Shown: positions 6,231 to 34,411 of the stretch, piece after piece
Layout of the letters: each line of letters opens with the position of its first letter
Numbering within the stretch: position 1 is the first letter of the stretch
Assembly: GCA_903930225.1 (NCBI GenBank)
Contig: CAIYXV010000098.1
Location: forward strand, 1 to 35,772
Direction of reading: 5' to 3'
Length of the DNA: 35,772 bases
From: an uncultured bacterium
GTDB taxonomy: Bacteria > Margulisbacteria > WOR-1 > XYC2-FULL-46-14 > WPAF01
The notes under the pieces: model-generated
What the model saw: only the letters and a program-made list of their open reading frames with translations
What the model was told of the DNA's origin: nothing
Databases searched by the model: none
Position numbers and translations under genes: made by a program

Positions 6231-7929
6231 TTTCTTTTCTTAGTTTATCGAGGAACTCTTCCAGTCCGGATTCCCCGATGTCTCCGCCATGCCGCGATCT
6301 TACCGCTACCTTCCCCGCCGCTTCTTCCTTATCCCCCACGATCAGCATATAAGGTATCTTCTGAACCTGTGCCTCCCGGATCTTGAGATTTATCTTTTCC
6401 CGCCGCGGATCAACTTCAACCCTGATTTCAGAATCCAGCAGTTTCTGTTTCAGCTTTTCGGCGTATCCCAGATGCCGGTCGGCGATCGGGAGAATAATGA
6501 CCTGGGTCGGCGCGATCCAGAGCGGGAACGCCCCGCCGTAATTCTCGATCAACGCGCCCAAAAACCTTTCCATTGATCCGAGCACCACCCGATGGATCAT
6601 GACCGGCCGCTTTTTGCTCCCGTCTTCCGCTATATAATGTAAATCGAACCTTTCGGGAAGGTTGAAATCCACTTGAATGGTGGGTCCTTGCCAGGGCCGT
6701 CCCAGCGCGTCCTTCATCTTTACGTCGATCTTTGGGCCGTAAAACACGCCTGCGCCGGGATCGGTCGCGTATTTTATTCCTTTTTTCTGCAGCGCGTTGA
6801 TCAGGGCGTCGGTGGCATGCGCCCAGTTTTCATCTGACCCCACGGAATTTTCGGGACGGGTCGAGAGGTAAACCTCGTAATCGAAGCCGAACGTCTTCAG
6901 CATCTCGAACGCGAAATCTATCACCGCGATGATCTCATCCTGCAGTTTTTCCGGCGTGGTGAAAATATGAGCGTCATCTTGGGTAAATCCCCGGACCCTA
7001 AGCAGTCCGTGAAGGACGCCGGACCTTTCGTAACGGTAGACGGTCCCCAGTTCAAAGAACCGGACCGGCAGGTCGCGGTAACTGTGCAATTTACTGTTGT
7101 AGATCAGGATGTGGCCAGGGCAGTTCATAGGTTTGAGCACATATTCCTGCTTGTCGATCTCCAGGAAATACATGTTCTCCCGGTAATATCCGGAATGCCC
7201 GGAAGTATTCCAGAGGTTGATCCGCGCGATATGGGGGGTGATCACGAATTCATACCCGCGTTTTAGATGCTCCTTCCGCAGAAAATCTTCGATCAAGAGG
7301 CGCAGTCTCGCCCCGCGGGGATGATAATAAACCAGGCCGGCGCCGGCTTCCTCGTGATAGATGTTAAAAAGGTCGAGTTCGCGTCCCAGTTTCCGGTGGT
7401 CCCGCTTGAGCGCTTCTTCCAGCTTCAGGATATGGGTCTTAAGGTCTTCTTCCTTTTCGAACGCGGTGCCATAGATGCGCTGCAACATGGGATTGGTCTC
7501 AACCCCGCGCCAGTAAGCCCCGGCAATGGTCAAAAGCTTGAACGCTCCCGCCTTGCCGGTCGAATCGATATGCGGCCCGCGGCAGAGGTCGATAAAGTCA
7601 CCGGTCCTGTAGACCGTGACGTTTGCATCCGGTATCTCTTTGATCAGCTCGACCTTGTATTTTTCGCCCTTTTCTGTAAAAAGCTTGACCGCGTCCTCTT
7701 TGGACATGGGGACCTTTATGAATTTTTCATCTTTCTTTACGATCTCCCGCATTTTCTCTTCGATCTTCACGAGGTCTTCTGGCGTGAGGGTTGTACCCGG
7801 TATGTCAAAGTCGTAGTAAAATCCTTCCTCGATCGCCGGGCCGATACCCAGTTTGGCGCTGGGGTAAAGCTGCTGTACGGCCGCGGCTAAAATATGAGAG
7901 GTCGAATGCCTTAAAAGTTCAAGCTCCAT
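6214..7929 (-). CDS. thrS: Threonyl-tRNA synthetase lacking the N-terminal TGS domain
   Basis: ThrRS charges tRNA-Thr and clears mis-charged serine. The protein starts almost directly with the editing domain (LLRHSTSHILAAAVQQL, then GIGPAIEEGFYYDFD). The second editing block follows with CRGPHIDSTGKAGAFKLL. The class II catalytic core shows MNCPGH, VYRYERSGVLHGLLRVRGF, TQDDAHIF and IHRVVLGSMERF, with the cysteine and histidines that bind the zinc. A C-terminal anticodon-binding domain ends the protein. At 571 residues it is about 65 shorter than typical ThrRS because the TGS domain is absent. I use the ATG at 7929, not the in-frame GTG at 7953, because a TATAAT lies 7 nt before this ATG and would be inside the longer form. 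Confidence 0.95.
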   Translation of the reverse strand: MELELLRHSTSHILAAAVQQLYPSAKLGIGPAIEEGFYYDFDIPGTTLTPEDLVKIEEKMREIVKKDEKFIKVPMSKEDAVKLFTEKGEKYKVELIKEIPDANVTVYRTGDFIDLCRGPHIDSTGKAGAFKLLTIAGAYWRGVETNPMLQRIYGTAFEKEEDLKTHILKLEEALKRDHRKLGRELDLFNIYHEEAGAGLVYYHPRGARLRLLIEDFLRKEHLKRGYEFVITPHIARINLWNTSGHSGYYRENMYFLEIDKQEYVLKPMNCPGHILIYNSKLHSYRDLPVRFFELGTVYRYERSGVLHGLLRVRGFTQDDAHIFTTPEKLQDEIIAVIDFAFEMLKTFGFDYEVYLSTRPENSVGSDENWAHATDALINALQKKGIKYATDPGAGVFYGPKIDVKMKDALGRPWQGPTIQVDFNLPERFDLHYIAEDGSKKRPVMIHRVVLGSMERFLGALIENYGGAFPLWIAPTQVIILPIADRHLGYAEKLKQKLLDSEIRVEVDPRREKINLKIREAQVQKIPYMLIVGDKEEAAGKVAVRSRHGGDIGESGLEEFLDKLRKEIDTKA

Positions 7930-7936
7930 AATAATA

Positions 7937-7967
7937 ATTATATCATACCTCACCCACTCTCCAGCAA
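7937..7967 (-). promoter_or_regulatory. Candidate thrS promoter with -10 box 7 nt from the start codon
   Basis: On the minus strand TATAAT occupies 7937-7942 and a weak TTGCTG (7962-7967) lies 19 bp upstream. The -10 is only 7 nt from the ATG, so the mRNA would be leaderless or nearly so, and no Shine-Dalgarno sequence is visible. Confidence 0.5.
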
Positions 7968-8000
7968 AGATGGGACGGCTGAAAAGTAATAGTAAGTGGA

Positions 8001-8089
8001 CCCCAGACTGAAGTCTGGGGAATATTTTTTCAGCAGATTCCCCACACTTTTCCTCCCGAGGCGGATCCGCCTTTGGCGGAAGTGTGGGG
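8001..8089. repeat. Double-hairpin repeat family B, copy 1 (with nested palindrome)
   Basis: A 20-base hairpin CCCCAGACTgAAGTCTGGGG (8001-8020) is followed by GAATATTT and a second hairpin with arms CCCCACACTT (8040-8049) and AAGTGTGGGG (8080-8089). Between the second arms lies a further palindrome, GGCGGATCCGCC (8060-8071). The same two hairpins recur at 14796-14864, where the nested insert is absent. The stretch 7930-8175 contains this element, the thrS promoter and a terminator, but no gene. Confidence 0.85.
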
Positions 8090-8122
8090 TTCTCTTTCTT
8101 CCCCTTTTCCAGCTGTCTCAGG

Positions 8123-8155
8123 CAAAAAAAAGCGTCCCGACATTGTCGGGACGCT
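8123..8155 (-). terminator. Rho-independent terminator of the lipoprotein gene
   Basis: On the minus strand AGCGTCCCGAC-aat-GTCGGGACGCT (11-bp perfect stem, 8131-8155) is followed by a run of T residues. It lies about 20 bp after the stop of the gene at 8176-8916 and points the right way. Confidence 0.9.
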
Positions 8156-8175
8156 TAAGCTAAAAAGAAATCAGC

Positions 8176-8916
8176 TTATGACGGATATACAGTAAAACTT
8201 GTGGAGGTACCTCCATAAGTAAAGGTCCCAATCGCAGTACCGTCAAATACAAGGGTTATCCCGGTCTGCGACACGTTGTCATAAGTGGAAGAGATACTGA
8301 TCGTTCCGGTAGGATAATCAGCCACTGTCGATCTGGGCAAAGAAAAACTGGTCGTTGTGAATGTCATTGCCAGCGTGTGGCTGACGTTTGATGCATCTGC
8401 GACATTCATGCTTATACCGACCGAACCGCTGATAACAACATTGGTCACTATTCCGCTGACAAGGGTATAATCAGCATGATAAGGATTGCTGCTGCTCCCG
8501 TAAGTCAGGGTCATGGCATATACGGCTGAAGAATATTTATAAGTGCCATAAACATCAACGGTTTTACCGGCGGTATCCACTTTGGCATGCAGATCAACCT
8601 CAATTGTCACGCCGCCTGCCGTCTCGGTTCCGGCAATGGAATACCAACCGCTTGTAGGACCGCTCACGACTATATCTTTTGAGCTGACATCCTTTATGCC
8701 AAAAGTGCTCACTCCTCCCGTGCCTGCCCATCCAGACATTGAACCGGCCATGCCTTGGGCCAGCGACGCGCCAAGGGTGGAATAGGTTTGCGCGGTCGTG
8801 GCCGGAAGCGCGGCGGTAGTTGAGTTATTGGAGCTTGCCTGCTGACAGCCGGTCAAGGCCGCAAGAGACATTACTACTACCCCCAATACCATAATGATCG
8901 CGAATATTTTTTTCAT
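8176..8916 (-). CDS. Putative lipoprotein of unknown function
   Basis: A 246-residue protein with a clear lipoprotein signal peptide: KK at the N-terminus, a hydrophobic stretch, and the lipobox LTGC with cysteine 24, followed by a serine/threonine/alanine-rich linker. The rest is rich in serine, threonine, glycine and valine and predicted beta-rich, for example STFGIKDVSSKDIVVSG and AMTFTTTSFSLPRSTV. I do not recognise a family. A strong ribosome binding site (AAAGGAGGTG) precedes the ATG and a rho-independent terminator follows, so it is probably a well-expressed single-gene unit. It would be anchored in the outer or inner membrane. Confidence 0.8.
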   Translation of the reverse strand: MKKIFAIIMVLGVVVMSLAALTGCQQASSNNSTTAALPATTAQTYSTLGASLAQGMAGSMSGWAGTGGVSTFGIKDVSSKDIVVSGPTSGWYSIAGTETAGGVTIEVDLHAKVDTAGKTVDVYGTYKYSSAVYAMTLTYGSSSNPYHADYTLVSGIVTNVVISGSVGISMNVADASNVSHTLAMTFTTTSFSLPRSTVADYPTGTISISSTYDNVSQTGITLVFDGTAIGTFTYGGTSTSFTVYPS

Positions 8917-8944
8917 ATTAATTCACCTCCTTTTGATTTATTTT

Positions 8945-9046
8945 AAATCCGAATTTCCTAAATCCTAAATCCGAACATTGTGCGCCTTGCGCATTATATA
9001 ATAAAAATACATCGTTCGGATTTCGGTAATTCGGATTTCGGATTTT
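8945..9046 (-). repeat. Stop-codon-abutting palindromic repeat family A, copy 2
   Basis: About 102 bp, ending 6 bp from the stop codon of the TrpB2 gene (minus strand). It has the AAATCCGAA-type arms and, on the minus strand, the core CCGAACGATGTAT, then TAATGCGCAAGGCGCACAAT and GTTCGG. It lacks the inner TTTGTTCGGGATT part of the longer copies. Relative to trpB2 its polarity is the same as the other copies have to their genes. It also separates trpB2 from the lipoprotein gene upstream region. Confidence 0.85.
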
Positions 9047-28104: not shown

Positions 28105-28425
28105 ATGATCCCATTGTCTTTTCTGGACTTTTTAAACGACATAAAAGTGACCATGGCTTTTGGGGCGGCTTTCATTATATTTGGGATCCTGCTGAACTTT
28201 GGGATCCGAAGGTCATCGCTTTCTTCAAAGGCCTGGCTCTTCTTTTTTCCCGCGATCCTGGTCCTGACCTTTATAATGTTGCAGGAGTTTCTCGTGGAAT
28301 ACGGCACGTTCACGCCGTTCAAGATGATGATCGTATTATTGAATTTTACGGTCATAACGCTCTTTTTCGCCGGCCTGCTGACGCATTACTTTGAAATATC
28401 AAAGAATCAGAAATCCAACAAATAA
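28105..28425 (+). CDS. Small 3-TM membrane protein of unknown function
   Basis: The 106-residue protein has three hydrophobic segments: VTMAFGAAFIIFGILLNFGI, AWLFFFPAILVLTFIMLQEF and MIVLLNFTVITLFFAGLLTH. It has a basic C-terminal tail (EISKNQKSNK). I do not recognise a family. It has a clear promoter and ribosome binding site and ends 3 bp before fmt, so the two are co-transcribed. The link with fmt may be accidental, arising from the rearrangement that separated fmt from def. Confidence 0.7.
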   Translation: MIPLSFLDFLNDIKVTMAFGAAFIIFGILLNFGIRRSSLSSKAWLFFFPAILVLTFIMLQEFLVEYGTFTPFKMMIVLLNFTVITLFFAGLLTHYFEISKNQKSNK

Positions 28426-29404: not shown

Positions 29405-29434
29405 TTGACAGCCCAACATCTAGTAGCATATAAT
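29405..29434 (+). promoter_or_regulatory. Promoter of the nrdR-nrdD-nrdD-grx operon
   Basis: A perfect TTGACA (29405-29410), an 18-bp spacer and a perfect TATAAT (29429-29434) lie upstream of nrdR. Transcription should start near 29441, inside the downstream palindrome. Confidence 0.82.
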
Positions 29435-29456
29435 CCTCAAACCTACTAAATGTAGT
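29413..29456. promoter_or_regulatory. Pair of NrdR-box-like operators
   Basis: The downstream box ACTAAATGTAGT (29445-29456) lies in a perfect palindrome with arms ACCTACTA and TAGTAGGT (29441-29460). The upstream box CCAACATCTAGT (29413-29424) lies between -35 and -10. As I recall the consensus core (ACWAYATRTWGT), they match 11 and 10 of 12 positions. They are exactly 32 bp apart, about three helical turns, the arrangement known for NrdR. They flank the -10 box, fitting repression. Confidence 0.7.
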
Positions 29457-29474
29457 AGGTGGAGATGTTTTTAA

Positions 29475-29921
29475 ATGAAATGCCCGGCCTGCGATATAGA
29501 CAACGATAAAGTTCTCGATTCCCGTCCTACCGAAGACGCCTTAGCCATCAGAAGAAGAAGGGAATGCCTGGAATGCGGCAACCGCTTCACTTCATATGAA
29601 AGGGTCGAAGAAAAACCCCTGCTGGTAATCAAGCGCGACGGCCGCCACGAAGAGTTCAACCGGGACAAGATCCTGGCCGGACTGGTCCGCGCCTGCGAAA
29701 AAAGGCCGGTCGACCTGGACGTGATCGAGAACATCGTCGACCAGGTAGAGAAAATGGTCCGCAAATCAAATAAGGAGATCAAAACCGCCCAGATCGGCGA
29801 GTTCATAATGGAAAGAATGCAGAAGGTTGACCAGATCTCTTATGTCCGCTTCGCTTCGGTTTACCGGCAGTTCACGGATGTCACTGATTTCGTACAAGTC
29901 GTAAAGGAGGTTTCAGCATGA
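29475..29921 (+). CDS. nrdR: Transcriptional repressor NrdR
   Basis: NrdR is the nucleotide-sensing repressor of ribonucleotide reductase genes. The N-terminal zinc ribbon has CPACDIDNDKVLDSRPTED and RRRRECLECGNRFTSYER, and the ATP-cone follows with VIKRDGRHEEFNRDKILAGL. VRFASVYRQFTDVTDF is the conserved C-terminal block. The 148-residue length is standard. It is the first gene of the operon it presumably controls, and its stop overlaps the nrdD start by 4 bp. GGAG upstream is the probable ribosome binding site. Confidence 0.97.
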   Translation: MKCPACDIDNDKVLDSRPTEDALAIRRRRECLECGNRFTSYERVEEKPLLVIKRDGRHEEFNRDKILAGLVRACEKRPVDLDVIENIVDQVEKMVRKSNKEIKTAQIGEFIMERMQKVDQISYVRFASVYRQFTDVTDFVQVVKEVSA

Positions 29922-32062
29922 GCGTAGTAGCGGAAGATAAATCGTCAAAGTCCCAGGAATTAAATGAACTGATAAAGGCGCGCGCGTCGTCTAACAACGA
30001 CGCTACCGACTTGGCCCTGTTCGTCAGGACCTCGTCCGAAAGCATCGTGAGCTGGGATCGGGAAAGGATCATCGAGGCGCTGATCAAGGAGACCGAGATC
30101 AGCCGCGACATCGCGGAAATAATCGGCCACGAGGTCGAGCGCCAGATCAGTAATTTGAGGATCGGCATCATCACCGCGCCGCTGATCCGCGAGCTGGTGG
30201 ACGTAAAACTTTTGGAATACGGGTTGGAAGAAGCCCGGCGCAAGCACACCCGCCTCGGCTCGCCGTTATATGACGTAAAGCAGATCATTCTCTCCCCCAA
30301 CAAGGAGAACGCCAACGTTCCGCACGGGCCGGAAGCGACCAACCTTTCGCTTGCCGAGGGGATCAAAAAAGAGTTCGCCCTGCTCCATGTGTTTTCCCAG
30401 GACATCGGCGACGCCCACATGAGAGGAGACCTCCATCTCCATGATCTCGGTTTTATCGATCGCCCTTACTGCTCCGGACAATCCATCGAATATGTAAAGA
30501 AGTTCGGGCTCGATCTCCCCAACGCGCTTTCGATCGCCAAGCCGGCCAAGCACGCCGAGGTATTGCTGGCGCAGATGGTCAAGTTCTCGGCCGCTCTGCA
30601 GGGCGTGTTCGCGGGCGCGATCGGCTGGGACGCGGTCAATCTTTTCTTCGCGCCGTTCCTGGTGGACATGCCCGACCGTGATGTCCACCAGCTCGCGCAG
30701 ATGATGATCTACGAATACAGCCAGCAGGCGGTGGCCCGCGGCGGACAGGCGATCTTCTCCGACATCAATCTCTATTACGAGATCCCCAAGCATTTTGAGA
30801 ACGTGCCGGCGATCGGCCCCGGCGGCCAGTACACCGGAAAGACTTACGGCGAATACCAGAAGGAATCGCAGAAATTCGCCTGGGAGCTGTTTAATGTATA
30901 TAGAGACGGCGACGGCTCCGGCCGGCCCTTTTTCTTCCCGAAGCCGCTGGTCCATATGACCGAGAAGTTCTTCAAGACCGAAGGGCACGAAAAATTCCTG
31001 CGCCACATCAGCGAGGTCGCGTCAGAAATGGGCAATACCTATTTTGTTTTTGACCGCGGCGATACCGCCAAGATCTCCGAATGCTGCCGGCTCTCGTTCA
31101 AGCTCGAGCAGTCGGACCTGGATGACGCCAAGGAACCGTGGCGGATGCGCTACTCCGCTCTGCAGAACGTCACCATCAACCTTCCCCGGATCGCGTTCCG
31201 GGCCGGCGGATCGGACGAAAAGCTTTACGAATATCTGGCGGACATGCTGGAGATGGCGGCCAAGGCGCACGTCCAAAAAAAGCGCTTCATCGAAGAGCTG
31301 CTGGCCAGCGGCAAGAATGGCCCGCTCTCGATGCTTACCATGCAAAGGGACGGCCAGCCTTATCTTAGAATGTTCCGGGTTTCCTACCTGATGGGGATCC
31401 TGGGACTTAACGAAATGACGCAGGCGCACATCGGCCAGGAACTGCACGAGAGCAAGGAGGCGCTCAAGCTCGGCCTCAAGGTCATCTCGTTCATGAGGAT
31501 CAAATGCGAAGAGATGACGAAAAAATACGGCATCCACTTTGTGCTGGAGCAGACCCCGGCCGAGTCGACCGCTTATCGCTTTGCCAAGCTCGATCTTACG
31601 CAGTTCACCGGCCAGGCGCGCAACGTGGTCAAGGGCAACTTCGAGACGGGAGAGATGTATTATTCTAACTCGACCTACTTCAACGTCTCTTGTGCCATGA
31701 ACCCGATCGACCGCGTCCAGCAGGAAGGGCTCTTCCATCCGTTGATCGACGCCGGCGCGCTGACCCACGTCTGGATGGGCGAGAGCAAGCCCAATCCCGA
31801 CAGCATCGCCAATTTCGTGATCAAGACCATGCGCGAGACCCAGAACAGCCAGATCGCGTTCTCCCCCGAATTCACCTCGTGCAACGACTGCGGAAAGATT
31901 GTCCGCGGTTTAAAGGACAACTGCCCGAGCTGCCAGTCCCAAAACATCGACGGCATCACCCGCATCACCGGATATTTCTCCAAGATCTCCGGCTGGAACA
32001 AAGGGAAGCGCGCGGAACTGAAGGACCGTTACCGCTCGTCGGAGTACTTCAATGCCCGCTGA
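29918..32062 (+). CDS. nrdD: Anaerobic (class III) ribonucleotide reductase, first of two tandem copies
   Basis: Reduces ribonucleoside triphosphates to deoxy forms with a glycyl radical. A 35-residue extension precedes an ATP-cone (SWDRERIIEALIKET, APLIRELVDVKLLEYGL). The reductase core has HLHDLGFIDRPYCSG with Cys185, ISECCRLSF with Cys389 and Cys390, and VLEQTPAESTAYRF. The C-terminal zinc site uses CNDC (655, 658) and CPSC (669, 672). The radical glycine is Gly685 in TRITGYF, followed by the family's WNKGK. At 714 residues it is complete. Cys592 (NVSCAMNP) has no counterpart in the second copy. It overlaps the second copy by 11 bp. No NrdG activase gene is near. The glutaredoxin downstream hints at a redoxin-using subtype. 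Confidence 0.95.
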   Translation: MSVVAEDKSSKSQELNELIKARASSNNDATDLALFVRTSSESIVSWDRERIIEALIKETEISRDIAEIIGHEVERQISNLRIGIITAPLIRELVDVKLLEYGLEEARRKHTRLGSPLYDVKQIILSPNKENANVPHGPEATNLSLAEGIKKEFALLHVFSQDIGDAHMRGDLHLHDLGFIDRPYCSGQSIEYVKKFGLDLPNALSIAKPAKHAEVLLAQMVKFSAALQGVFAGAIGWDAVNLFFAPFLVDMPDRDVHQLAQMMIYEYSQQAVARGGQAIFSDINLYYEIPKHFENVPAIGPGGQYTGKTYGEYQKESQKFAWELFNVYRDGDGSGRPFFFPKPLVHMTEKFFKTEGHEKFLRHISEVASEMGNTYFVFDRGDTAKISECCRLSFKLEQSDLDDAKEPWRMRYSALQNVTINLPRIAFRAGGSDEKLYEYLADMLEMAAKAHVQKKRFIEELLASGKNGPLSMLTMQRDGQPYLRMFRVSYLMGILGLNEMTQAHIGQELHESKEALKLGLKVISFMRIKCEEMTKKYGIHFVLEQTPAESTAYRFAKLDLTQFTGQARNVVKGNFETGEMYYSNSTYFNVSCAMNPIDRVQQEGLFHPLIDAGALTHVWMGESKPNPDSIANFVIKTMRETQNSQIAFSPEFTSCNDCGKIVRGLKDNCPSCQSQNIDGITRITGYFSKISGWNKGKRAELKDRYRSSEYFNAR

Positions 32063-34127
32063 TACCATCGCGCGCGAAGCGACCGACCTTTCGCTTTTTG
32101 TCCGGACCTCGACCGACAACATCGAGGCCTGGGACCGGGGAAAAATATCCGAGGCGCTGGTGCGGGAGACCGGGCTCAAGCCGGAGATCGCGAACATCAT
32201 CGGGGTCGAAGTGGAAAAAGAGATCATGGGGCTTAACCTTACCAACATCACCGCCCCGCTGATCCGCGAACTGGTGGACGTAAAACTCCTCGAATACGGG
32301 CTGGAAGAGGCGAGAAGGAAGCACACCCGCCTCGGCTCGCCGGTGTTCGACGTCAACAAGATCCTGTTCCATAAGAACAAGGAGAACGCCAACACGCCGC
32401 ACACTCCCGAAGCCACCAACCTCACCCTGGCGGAGAATATAAAGAAGGAATTCGCTCTGCTTAACGTGTTCTCGCCTGACATTGCCGACGCGCACATGCG
32501 CGGGGACATCCACCTGCACGATCTCGGATTTATCGACCGCCCCTACTGCTCGGGACAGTCGATCGAATACATAAAGAAATTCGGCCTTGACCTGCCGGAC
32601 GCTCCCGCATCCGCCCGTCCGCCCGAAGACGCGGAAGACCTGATCTCGCAGATCGTAAAGTTCTCGCTCGCTCTCCATGGCCACTTCGCCGGTGCGATCG
32701 GCTGGGACGCGGTCAATATGTTCATTGCTCCCTTCATCGTCGGCATGAACAAGGAACAGCTGCGCAAGCTCGCCCGCCAGCTTATAACCGAATTCTCGAC
32801 CGTCGCCATCTCCCGGGGAGGACAGGGACTGTTCTCGGACCTGAACGTCTATTACGAGATCCCGAAGCACTTCGAGAATACCCCCGCCATCGGCCCGGGC
32901 GGAAAGTACACCGGAAAACCTTATAAGGATTACAAGAAGGAATCACAATCGTTCGCTTACGCGATGTTTGAGATCTACGCCGAAGGCGACGGGGCCGGAA
33001 GGCCGTTCTTTTTCCCGAAACCCCTCCTCCACATGACTGAAAAATTCTTTACCGAAGAGGGGCACGAGGATTTTCTCCGCGCGGCTTCGGATGTCGCGGC
33101 AAAAATGGGAAATACCTATTTTGTTTTTGACCGCGGTGAGACCGCCAAGATCTCGGAATGCTGCCGGCTCGCTTTCAAGCTTGAATATTCCGATCTACAA
33201 GACGCCAAGGAGCCCTGGAGAATGAGGTACTCGGCCATCCAGAACATAACCATCAACCTGCCCCGGATCGCCTATCTGGCAGCGGGCGATGAGGAGCAGC
33301 TGCTAAAGTTCCTTGAGTCCCGGCTTGACATGGCCGCGCGGGCGCACAAACAAAAGAGGATCTTCATTGAAAAGCTCCTTGCGGAAGGCTCCGAGGGACC
33401 GCTTTCGCTTCTGGCCATGAACCGCGACGGGGAACCTTATTTGAGACTGCGGCGCGTCACCCACCTGGTAGGGATCCTGGGGCTCAACGAAATGGTCCAG
33501 TCCCATACCGGCTTTGAGCTGCACCAGTCTCCCGAAGCGCTAAAGCTCGGCCTTAAGATCGTTTCTTTTATGAAGATAAAATGCGAGGAACTCTCTGAAA
33601 AGTACGATCTCCGCTTCGTGCTCGAGCAGACCCCGGCCGAGTCGACCGCCTACCGGTTCGCCAAGCTCGACCTCCAGCATTATCCGGATAAAACGGTGAA
33701 AGTGATAAAAGGAGACCTTAGCAAGGGAGAGATCTATTACACCAATTCGACCTATATTAATGTTTATCATCCATTGAACCCGATCGATCGGGTAACACAG
33801 GAAGGCCTATTCCATCCGCTGATCGACGCCGGGGCGCTGACCCACATCTGGCTGGGCGAAAGCCGTCCGGACGCCGAAAGCATCAGTAATTTCGTGGTGA
33901 AGGTGTTCCGTGAAACGCAAAGCAGCCAGATCGCTTTTTCCCCCGAATTCACGGTCTGCAATGACTGCGGAAAGACCGCGCGCGGGCTTTTGGACCGCTG
34001 CCCTTTCTGCCGGTCCGAAAAGGTGGAAGGGATCACCCGCATCACGGGTTATTTTTCGAGAATATCGGGCTGGAACAAGGGAAAGATCGCCGAGTTAAGA
34101 GATCGGCACCGGACCCCAAATATTTAA
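32052..34127 (+). CDS. nrdD: Anaerobic (class III) ribonucleotide reductase, second tandem copy
   Basis: A close paralogue of the preceding gene, colinear from the ATP-cone (AWDRGKISEALVRET) to the end, but without the 20-odd extra N-terminal residues. Key residues are kept: Cys166 in PYCSG, Cys370 and Cys371 in SECCRL, zinc cysteines 636, 639, 650 and 653, and Gly666 in TRITGYF. His573 replaces the first copy's Cys592 (NVYHPLNP). Variable parts are the region after the active-site strand (residues 180-200) and the segment near 405-450. So it is not decayed and should be catalytically competent. It may differ in allosteric control or reductant, or form heterodimers with the first copy. Starts 11 bp before the end of copy 1. 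Confidence 0.95.
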   Translation: MPADTIAREATDLSLFVRTSTDNIEAWDRGKISEALVRETGLKPEIANIIGVEVEKEIMGLNLTNITAPLIRELVDVKLLEYGLEEARRKHTRLGSPVFDVNKILFHKNKENANTPHTPEATNLTLAENIKKEFALLNVFSPDIADAHMRGDIHLHDLGFIDRPYCSGQSIEYIKKFGLDLPDAPASARPPEDAEDLISQIVKFSLALHGHFAGAIGWDAVNMFIAPFIVGMNKEQLRKLARQLITEFSTVAISRGGQGLFSDLNVYYEIPKHFENTPAIGPGGKYTGKPYKDYKKESQSFAYAMFEIYAEGDGAGRPFFFPKPLLHMTEKFFTEEGHEDFLRAASDVAAKMGNTYFVFDRGETAKISECCRLAFKLEYSDLQDAKEPWRMRYSAIQNITINLPRIAYLAAGDEEQLLKFLESRLDMAARAHKQKRIFIEKLLAEGSEGPLSLLAMNRDGEPYLRLRRVTHLVGILGLNEMVQSHTGFELHQSPEALKLGLKIVSFMKIKCEELSEKYDLRFVLEQTPAESTAYRFAKLDLQHYPDKTVKVIKGDLSKGEIYYTNSTYINVYHPLNPIDRVTQEGLFHPLIDAGALTHIWLGESRPDAESISNFVVKVFRETQSSQIAFSPEFTVCNDCGKTARGLLDRCPFCRSEKVEGITRITGYFSRISGWNKGKIAELRDRHRTPNI

Positions 34128-34138
34128 GGAGAAAAGAT

Positions 34139-34411
34139 ATGGAAGTTAAAATTTTCGGCAAACCGGGATGCGAGTACTGCAAGACCACAATAAAGAAGTT
34201 CGAAACTTTTTTTGACCGGTGGTCAATCGACAAGAACATAATTCCGCTCTTATTTTTTGATATGGAGCAGGTCGACGGACTGGCCGAGGGCGCTTTTTAT
34301 TCGGTTTCCAAGATCCCCTCGACCATCATTGAAAAGGATGGGAGGATCCTCGCCCGCTGGGACGGGCAGGTGCCGCTGTCAGAAGAATTTAAAAAGTATT
34401 TCGAGGCTTGA
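34139..34411 (+). CDS. Glutaredoxin/NrdH-like thiol-disulfide protein
   Basis: The 90-residue protein has a thioredoxin fold: the strand VKIFGKPG, the redox motif CEYC (residues 11-14), and the cis-proline block SKIPSTII followed by DGRILARWDG. The CEYC pair resembles glutaredoxin/NrdH. It has its own ribosome binding site (AAGGAG), 11 bp after the second nrdD, and is the last gene of the operon. This placement suggests it is the electron donor for the NrdD enzymes, as described for redoxin-dependent class III reductases. Its 3' end overlaps the convergent gene by 23 bp. Confidence 0.85.
   Translation: MEVKIFGKPGCEYCKTTIKKFETFFDRWSIDKNIIPLLFFDMEQVDGLAEGAFYSVSKIPSTIIEKDGRILARWDGQVPLSEEFKKYFEA

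Follow-up and report, generated by a model that had tools for sequence, protein, structure and literature searches.

Tandem class III ribonucleotide reductases with diverged specificity-effector regions, and a free-standing NrdD-type glycyl-radical protein, in Saganbacteria/WOR-1

Results

The window analysed here is a 35,772-nt stretch of DNA from an uncultured bacterium (contig CAIYXV010000098.1), on which all positions are numbered, and its best relatives are Saganbacteria/WOR-1/Margulisbacteria metagenome genomes. At 29475-34411 it carries the operon nrdR–nrdD(A)–nrdD(B)–redoxin, in which two genes for NrdD, the class III ribonucleotide reductase (RNR), stand in tandem (Table 1). An earlier note made from the sequence alone had placed these four genes at the locus, and family searches and coordinates confirmed them. 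NrdD-A and NrdD-B align over 680 residues without gaps at 70% identity, both match the NRDD family over their full length (PF13597, 8.5e-145 for A and 1.1e-137 for B), and both exceed the TIGR02487 cut-off of 326 (421 bits for A, 425 bits for B). The AlphaFold model of NrdD-A has a pLDDT of 83 and each of its best PDB matches is an NrdD. More than 20 related loci, some of them clipped at contig ends, have the same order nrdR-A-B-redoxin, which together with the NRDD E-values (1e-145 and 1e-137 in round figures) excludes a chance arrangement. The start of nrdD-B overlaps the stop of nrdD-A by 11 bp, which probably reflects translational coupling. The PDB relatives of the redoxin are redoxin/PDO proteins, and this CEYC protein is probably the electron donor of the two NrdDs.

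In the phylogenetic tree, A and B form reciprocally monophyletic groups (A 98, B 100, A+B 99), therefore the duplication predates the class, and a single ancient duplication in the ancestor of Saganbacteria/WOR-1 gave rise to both paralogues. NrdD pairs were found in about 24 of the 31 class genomes searched (our own count), and outside the class this NrdD subfamily is encoded by one gene only, in many cases next to a small redoxin. The phylogeny and the gene-order search that the earlier note had proposed thus both point to an ancient tandem that is common to the class and conserved, and a recent strain-specific duplication is rejected by the tree. The stem of B is four times as long as that of A (0.38 versus 0.089), and dN/dS values of ~0.07 for A and ~0.10 for B (L009-L020) indicate purifying selection on both.

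The βA cysteine (C185 in A, C166 in B), the finger-loop cysteine pair (389-390 in A, 370-371 in B), the four zinc cysteines and the radical glycine align and are invariant across complete A and B orthologues, as had been read from the two copies in the window. With invariant catalytic residues and purifying selection, decay of a second copy was rejected and the window's A and B are both undecayed, in agreement with the earlier note. Two loci carry nrdR-A-redoxin without B (L019, genome G025, and L062, genome G020), and because their sister A sequences stem from loci that keep B, B has been lost twice independently. No reductase other than A was detected in L019/G025. At another locus (L038:5253-7291, G009:C35), NrdD-A is frameshifted with a small deletion and the adjoining NrdD-B is intact, which represents either decay or an assembly error. 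The earlier note had named a recent strain-specific copy, inactivated in relatives, as the finding that would speak against it; this fails on age and conservation, yet the frameshifted A of L038 is a disrupted copy in a relative. PF02867, the family of class I/II reductases, is absent from 26 of the 31 class genomes, and most class members have no class II reductase of the NrdJ kind. One was found in the window's genome, a short class II (adenosylcobalamin) NrdJ of 533 aa with an NPCGE motif (L144:3392-4993, G000:C103).

The two copies had also been thought to keep the ATP-cone, which did not hold: A scores 22.4 bits against a Pfam cut-off of 25.8, B has no match, and the KRDG motif is absent. 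ATP-cone control of NrdD-A and NrdD-B was rejected on this basis. Relatives of 820-890 aa have both an outer cone, which is canonical, and an inner cone, which is degenerate; of the two, only the inner cone persists in A and B, as a vestige. Inner cones were found to have drifted from function in a 2022 RNR survey (PMC9669993). The motifs SECCR and LEQTPAE are common to A, B and their subfamily. According to a published rule, NrdDs with a double Cys, no Met and an active-site Glu use a thioredoxin-type reductant only (PMC9669993), and both A and B have the CCR motif without a preceding Met together with the active-site Glu. Because the Met-less SECCR and the active-site Glu occur beside a conserved redoxin neighbour, redoxin dependence of both NrdDs is supported, as the earlier note had supposed. 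They probably take their electrons from the adjoining redoxin, and use of formate is unlikely. A and B have identical active sites, therefore the idea that they use different reductants is unsupported, and a split of reductant use between them was rejected.

While catalytic positions show no difference between A and B, 29 of the 295 columns conserved in A and the outgroups are changed in B. These changes are concentrated in A residues 202-283 (18 of 45 columns, versus 11 of 250 elsewhere), which span loop 2 and the helices αA (213-228) and αB (253-274) as positioned from the predicted NrdD-A structure. The hypergeometric p of 7.6e-10 for 18 of the 29 changes applies to a region that was picked once the columns had been inspected; an unbiased permutation scan gave 0 of 5000. 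The converse set, changed in A rather than in B, comprises 4 columns. Q228H, A278G, I279L and I283L are fixed in 22 of 22 B orthologues, and Q258 and Q261 of A are K/R in B, whereas A is ancestral in this region, also in the lineages without B. In the NrdD of Thermotoga maritima, dATP binds as effector along αA/αB, where the two chains of the dimer meet, and its signal reaches the substrate through loop 2 (PMC4493059). Profile alignments place the metal-binding Gln of this effector site at Q258 or Q261 of A, and the pairwise alignment places it at M263, so the register of αB is uncertain by a few residues, though the region is not. Since the changes of B cluster in the effector helices and loop 2 and the catalytic positions are unchanged, allosteric specificity is the favoured reading of the A/B divergence, corresponding to the suggestion of two enzymes with different nucleotide control in the earlier note.

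The alternative offered there was a heterodimer. In such a dimer, catalysis might fall mostly to one chain and regulation to the other, an asymmetric counterpart of P. copri NrdD, whose dimers have one monomer active at a time (PMC11226230). The A and B reading frames overlap or abut in most loci and the divergence sits in dimer-interface helices, as such a complex would have it. However, the catalytic, zinc and radical residues of B are strongly constrained, which a regulatory subunit would not need, and in L019 and L062 A functions in the absence of B, with no compensating change in its specificity region. We therefore regard this arrangement as unlikely: its obligate form is unsupported by the two lineages that lost B, one of them without any other detected reductase, and its facultative form is possible. 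It is improbable that the duplication was kept for dosage only. A and B do share an active site and an operon, and either copy can be missing; but asymmetric rates and a B signature that is fixed in all 22 orthologues and clustered in one functional region would not be expected of interchangeable copies.

NrdR of the window has a genuine ATP-cone (79 bits). Paired candidate NrdR boxes about three helical turns apart stand at the operon promoter, the arrangement of the NrdR regulon, and their modest score of 22 exceeds that of shuffled sequences (mean 18.1, max 21) by a slim margin. Stronger pairs with the same 31-32 bp spacing were found at L004, L016, L019, L027 and L072. The gene for the activase, nrdG, is indeed missing from the operon, as the earlier note had remarked, but an NrdG2-type activase is encoded elsewhere in the same genome (G000:C38; TIGR02495, 218 bits, cut-off 131).

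A third, short NRDD match was found in the window's genome, a 97-aa protein (L003:1312-1605, G000:C107:2640-2933) that ends in an NrdD glycyl loop of 35 residues and has no zinc cysteines. Its gene has a strong Shine-Dalgarno sequence and overlaps the gene of an Rrf2-type regulator by 4 bp. Relatives of 90-99 aa (L080-L098) occur in 19 of the 31 class genomes, with an Rrf2-type gene in the fetched locus for 13 of these 19. The sole Pfam match of the small protein under E=1 is PF13597 (NRDD C-terminus); it does not show the pyruvate formate-lyase (PFL)-type glycine radical domain of GrcA/YfiD and so resembles a spare part by analogy, yet lies outside the GrcA/YfiD family. A single-sequence fold prediction of the protein was of low confidence (pLDDT 54). 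Searches for it in phages gave no match, and those in plasmids one weak match, inside an annotated nrdD.

In an Eisenbacteria-like phylum, an NrdD without its radical glycine is the only NrdD of the genomes concerned (L056, L057, L058, L059, L064, L032, L069, L035), and each glycine-less genome surveyed has one NrdD. The protein stops exactly at the glycine in L056-L059 (...ITNRTT*), has Gly replaced by Asp in L032 and L069 (RVSDY in place of RVTGY), and has Gly replaced by Ser plus a stop in L035 (KVTS*FS); the tree requires at least three separate losses of the glycine in this phylum. The L059 gene lies at 6467-8977, and the small glycyl protein that goes with it is encoded at L125:1438-1716. 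A survey of this phylum found the small glycyl protein in 12 of 13 genomes with a glycine-less or interrupted NrdD (our own count), the exception being a 1.7-Mb assembly; in other phyla it was found in 2 of 20 genomes with an intact NrdD. For the genomes outside Saganbacteria, presence of the small protein is associated with the state of NrdD (Fisher p ~1e-4, calculated over genomes that are not phylogenetically independent). In Omnitrophota L070, a homologue of the small protein directly follows an nrdD that ends at the zinc finger; this nrdD also has a frame break, which makes the case weaker evidence.

In the NrdD of P. copri the glycyl domain has a natural mobility (PMC11226230), therefore replacement of this domain in trans is plausible, and the small protein probably supplies the glycyl radical to glycine-less NrdDs. 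It would be to class III RNR what the YfiD spare part is to PFL, and would have become an obligate subunit of those enzymes that have lost their glycine. We consider it fairly likely that the NrdD radical can reside on a diffusible protein of ~95 aa, which would be a spare part in Saganbacteria and the sole source of the radical in the Eisenbacteria-like phylum and some Omnitrophota, where the one RNR detected would then be an obligate two-component enzyme. That the protein has nothing to do with NrdD, and instead acts as a regulator or belongs to some different glycyl radical enzyme as its subunit or spare part, would agree with its place in Saganbacteria on another contig, beside Rrf2 and not beside nrd genes. 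We find this doubtful in view of its NrdD-type radical loop and sole family match, of the neighbouring truncated nrdD in L070, and of the genomes with glycine-less NrdDs, where it is the only NrdD-type glycine found. Least probable is that gene decay or misassembly accounts for the glycine-less NrdDs and an undetected enzyme makes the DNA precursors: all are from metagenome-assembled genomes of unstated completeness and stop codons can be artefacts, but the glycine was lost by three independent routes, separate genomes have an identical C-terminus, the retained protein has intact Cys and Zn sites and a dN/dS of 0.065-0.08 (0.16 for the L032/L069 pair), and PF02867 was absent from all 12 genomes searched, eight of which have a glycine-less NrdD.

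Further split NrdDs were observed. A second, MCCR-type NrdD with a canonical ATP-cone is present at L118, L120 and L121 (also L119; genomes G004, G018, G020, G022 and G028), and in the three Saganbacteria loci L118, L120 and L121 its last 48-57 aa, with the radical glycine, form a separate ORF with its own Shine-Dalgarno sequence. This split enzyme is the only ribonucleotide reductase detected in G004. A +1 frameshift joining the two parts was considered, as the small ORF overlaps in the same +1 frame in all three loci, and was set aside because each ORF has its own Shine-Dalgarno sequence and ATG and the joined zinc-finger spacing is odd. In G070 (L071 and L134), NrdD ends in the middle of the zinc finger and a 65-aa protein on a different contig carries the other CxxC and a radical glycine, so that the zinc site looks as if divided between two chains; this genome also has a second split NrdD.

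Beside the operon, the redoxin gene and a convergent phosphodiester glycosidase-domain gene share 23 bp at their 3' ends (34389-34411). A 106-aa ORF immediately upstream of fmt (28105-28425) has no Pfam match and is apparently a small membrane protein.

Table 1. Operon genes, promoter elements and NrdD sites in the window
Feature	Positions	Strand	Evidence
-35-like element TTGACA, operon promoter	29405..29410	+	sequence; 18-bp spacer to -10
Candidate NrdR box 1, within promoter spacer	29411..29426	+	box-pair scoring; 32 bp from box 2
-10-like element TATAAT	29429..29434	+	sequence
Candidate NrdR box 2, palindrome CTACTAAATGTAGTAG	29443..29458	+	box-pair scoring
nrdR, dATP/ATP-sensing repressor	29475..29921	+	TIGR00244, 181 bits, cut-off 125
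nrdD-A, class III ribonucleotide reductase, 714 aa	29918..32062	+	family searches, tree, model
A residues 202-283: helix αA 213-228, helix αB 253-274, loop 2	30521..30766	+	alignment, scan, model
A finger-loop motif SECCR, residues 387-391	31076..31090	+	sequence, alignment
A radical glycine G685 in ITRITGYFS	31970..31972	+	alignment to characterised NrdD
nrdD-B, class III ribonucleotide reductase, 691 aa	32052..34127	+	family searches, tree
B residues 183-264, counterpart of A 202-283; H209, K239, R242, G259, L260, L264	32598..32843	+	alignment, scan
B finger-loop motif SECCR, residues 368-372	33153..33167	+	sequence, alignment
B radical glycine G666	34047..34049	+	alignment
Thioredoxin-fold redoxin, CEYC active site, 90 aa	34139..34411	+	PF13192 1.5e-7

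Discussion

We propose, with a probability of about 0.6, that the operon encodes two redoxin-dependent NrdDs that arose by an ancient duplication, have diverged in their effector sites, are controlled by NrdR, and have a glycyl tail that can be replaced in trans. A and B would have been co-transcribed behind NrdR, together with the redoxin, since the duplication. The chemistry would be the same in both: the NrdG2 activase would make the glycyl radical, the radical would pass from the glycine to the finger-loop cysteine, and the CxxC redoxin would re-reduce the active-site disulfide. A would be the slow-evolving paralogue with the ancestral specificity site, and B the derived one with its effector site remodelled in αA, αB and loop 2 and with basic residues at the expected position of the effector metal. 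Because of this remodelling, A and B may respond differently to dNTP effectors and may jointly balance the four dNTPs, most relatives having no class I/II enzyme. Overall activity would be set by NrdR at the promoter, no longer by an ATP-cone on the enzyme, and the ~97-aa glycyl-radical protein would act in trans in place of a glycyl-radical tail that has been damaged, the part that YfiD plays for PFL.

Several observations weigh against this proposal. The window's own genome has the class II NrdJ, two lineages do without B, and the A gene of L038/G009 has a frameshift, possibly through an assembly error. Mapping onto solved structures was made at ~20% identity, with the αB register shifting by a few residues between alignments, and a facultative A/B heterodimer would likewise lead one to expect divergence where its chains meet. 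No long free-standing glycyl protein was seen in G001, G013 or G021, which have the tandem; therefore an NrdD that has a glycine of its own does not require the small protein.

Redoxin-dependent class III RNRs (NrdD2 in part; Neisseria bacilliformis, T. maritima NrdDh) share with A and B the Met-less double-Cys finger loop, the active-site Glu, the C-terminal Zn finger and the radical glycine, and the T. maritima structures are the nearest with this type of finger loop. They differ from A and B in sequence (~20% identity) and in the finger loop, which is SECCR here and SCCR/MCCR in published NrdDh, with S or M directly before CCR; the window operon, in addition, has two paralogues, a dedicated redoxin and a vestigial inner cone. 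The NrdDs of Prevotella copri, S. thermophilus and phage T4 have the fold of A (Foldseek E 2.5e-28 to 8p2s) and likewise an effector site along αA/αB with loop 2, but they have a single-Cys formate-type finger loop and one gene, and those of P. copri and S. thermophilus a functional ATP-cone.

The PFL spare parts YfiD/GrcA and phage T4 Y06I resemble the small protein in being small and free-standing, with a glycyl-radical loop and C-terminal helix homologous to the tail of the enzyme, and were proposed to replace an oxygen-cut tail (PMC8683613). Unlike YfiD/GrcA, the small protein has an NrdD-type radical loop and a different conserved sequence in its N-terminal ~60 aa, and in one phylum the enzyme has no glycine of its own, hence the partner looks obligatory. 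Class I RNR (NrdA + NrdB) offers an analogy only, a catalytic subunit with a separate radical-bearing subunit; NrdB is a ferritin-like metalloprotein unrelated to the small glycyl protein. Aminoacyl radical enzymes, with Ala, Ser or Thr for Gly, are also glycyl radical enzyme homologues without the canonical glycine (PMC11528403), whereas here the loop is truncated or has Gly replaced by Asp (L032, L069) and the radical loop persists on another protein.

NrdD, NrdR, redoxin-dependent NrdDs and spare parts are known kinds. Public genomes contain very short proteins that carry the annotation anaerobic ribonucleoside-triphosphate reductase. In the open-access literature we found neither a tandem pair of redoxin-type NrdDs whose specificity sites have diverged nor, apart from the split nrdD known in phages, a class III glycyl radical on a separate protein in cellular genomes, and the novelty of both is provisional. 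Spare parts have been validated for PFL only, and their existence for other glycyl radical enzymes was an open suggestion in 2021 (PMC8683613). Glycine-less NrdDs together with a retained free-standing NrdD-type glycine make this question testable for an enzyme of DNA-precursor synthesis. The tandem pair, in turn, is a matched experiment in allostery, in which paralogues with the same active site differ mainly in their specificity-effector machinery.

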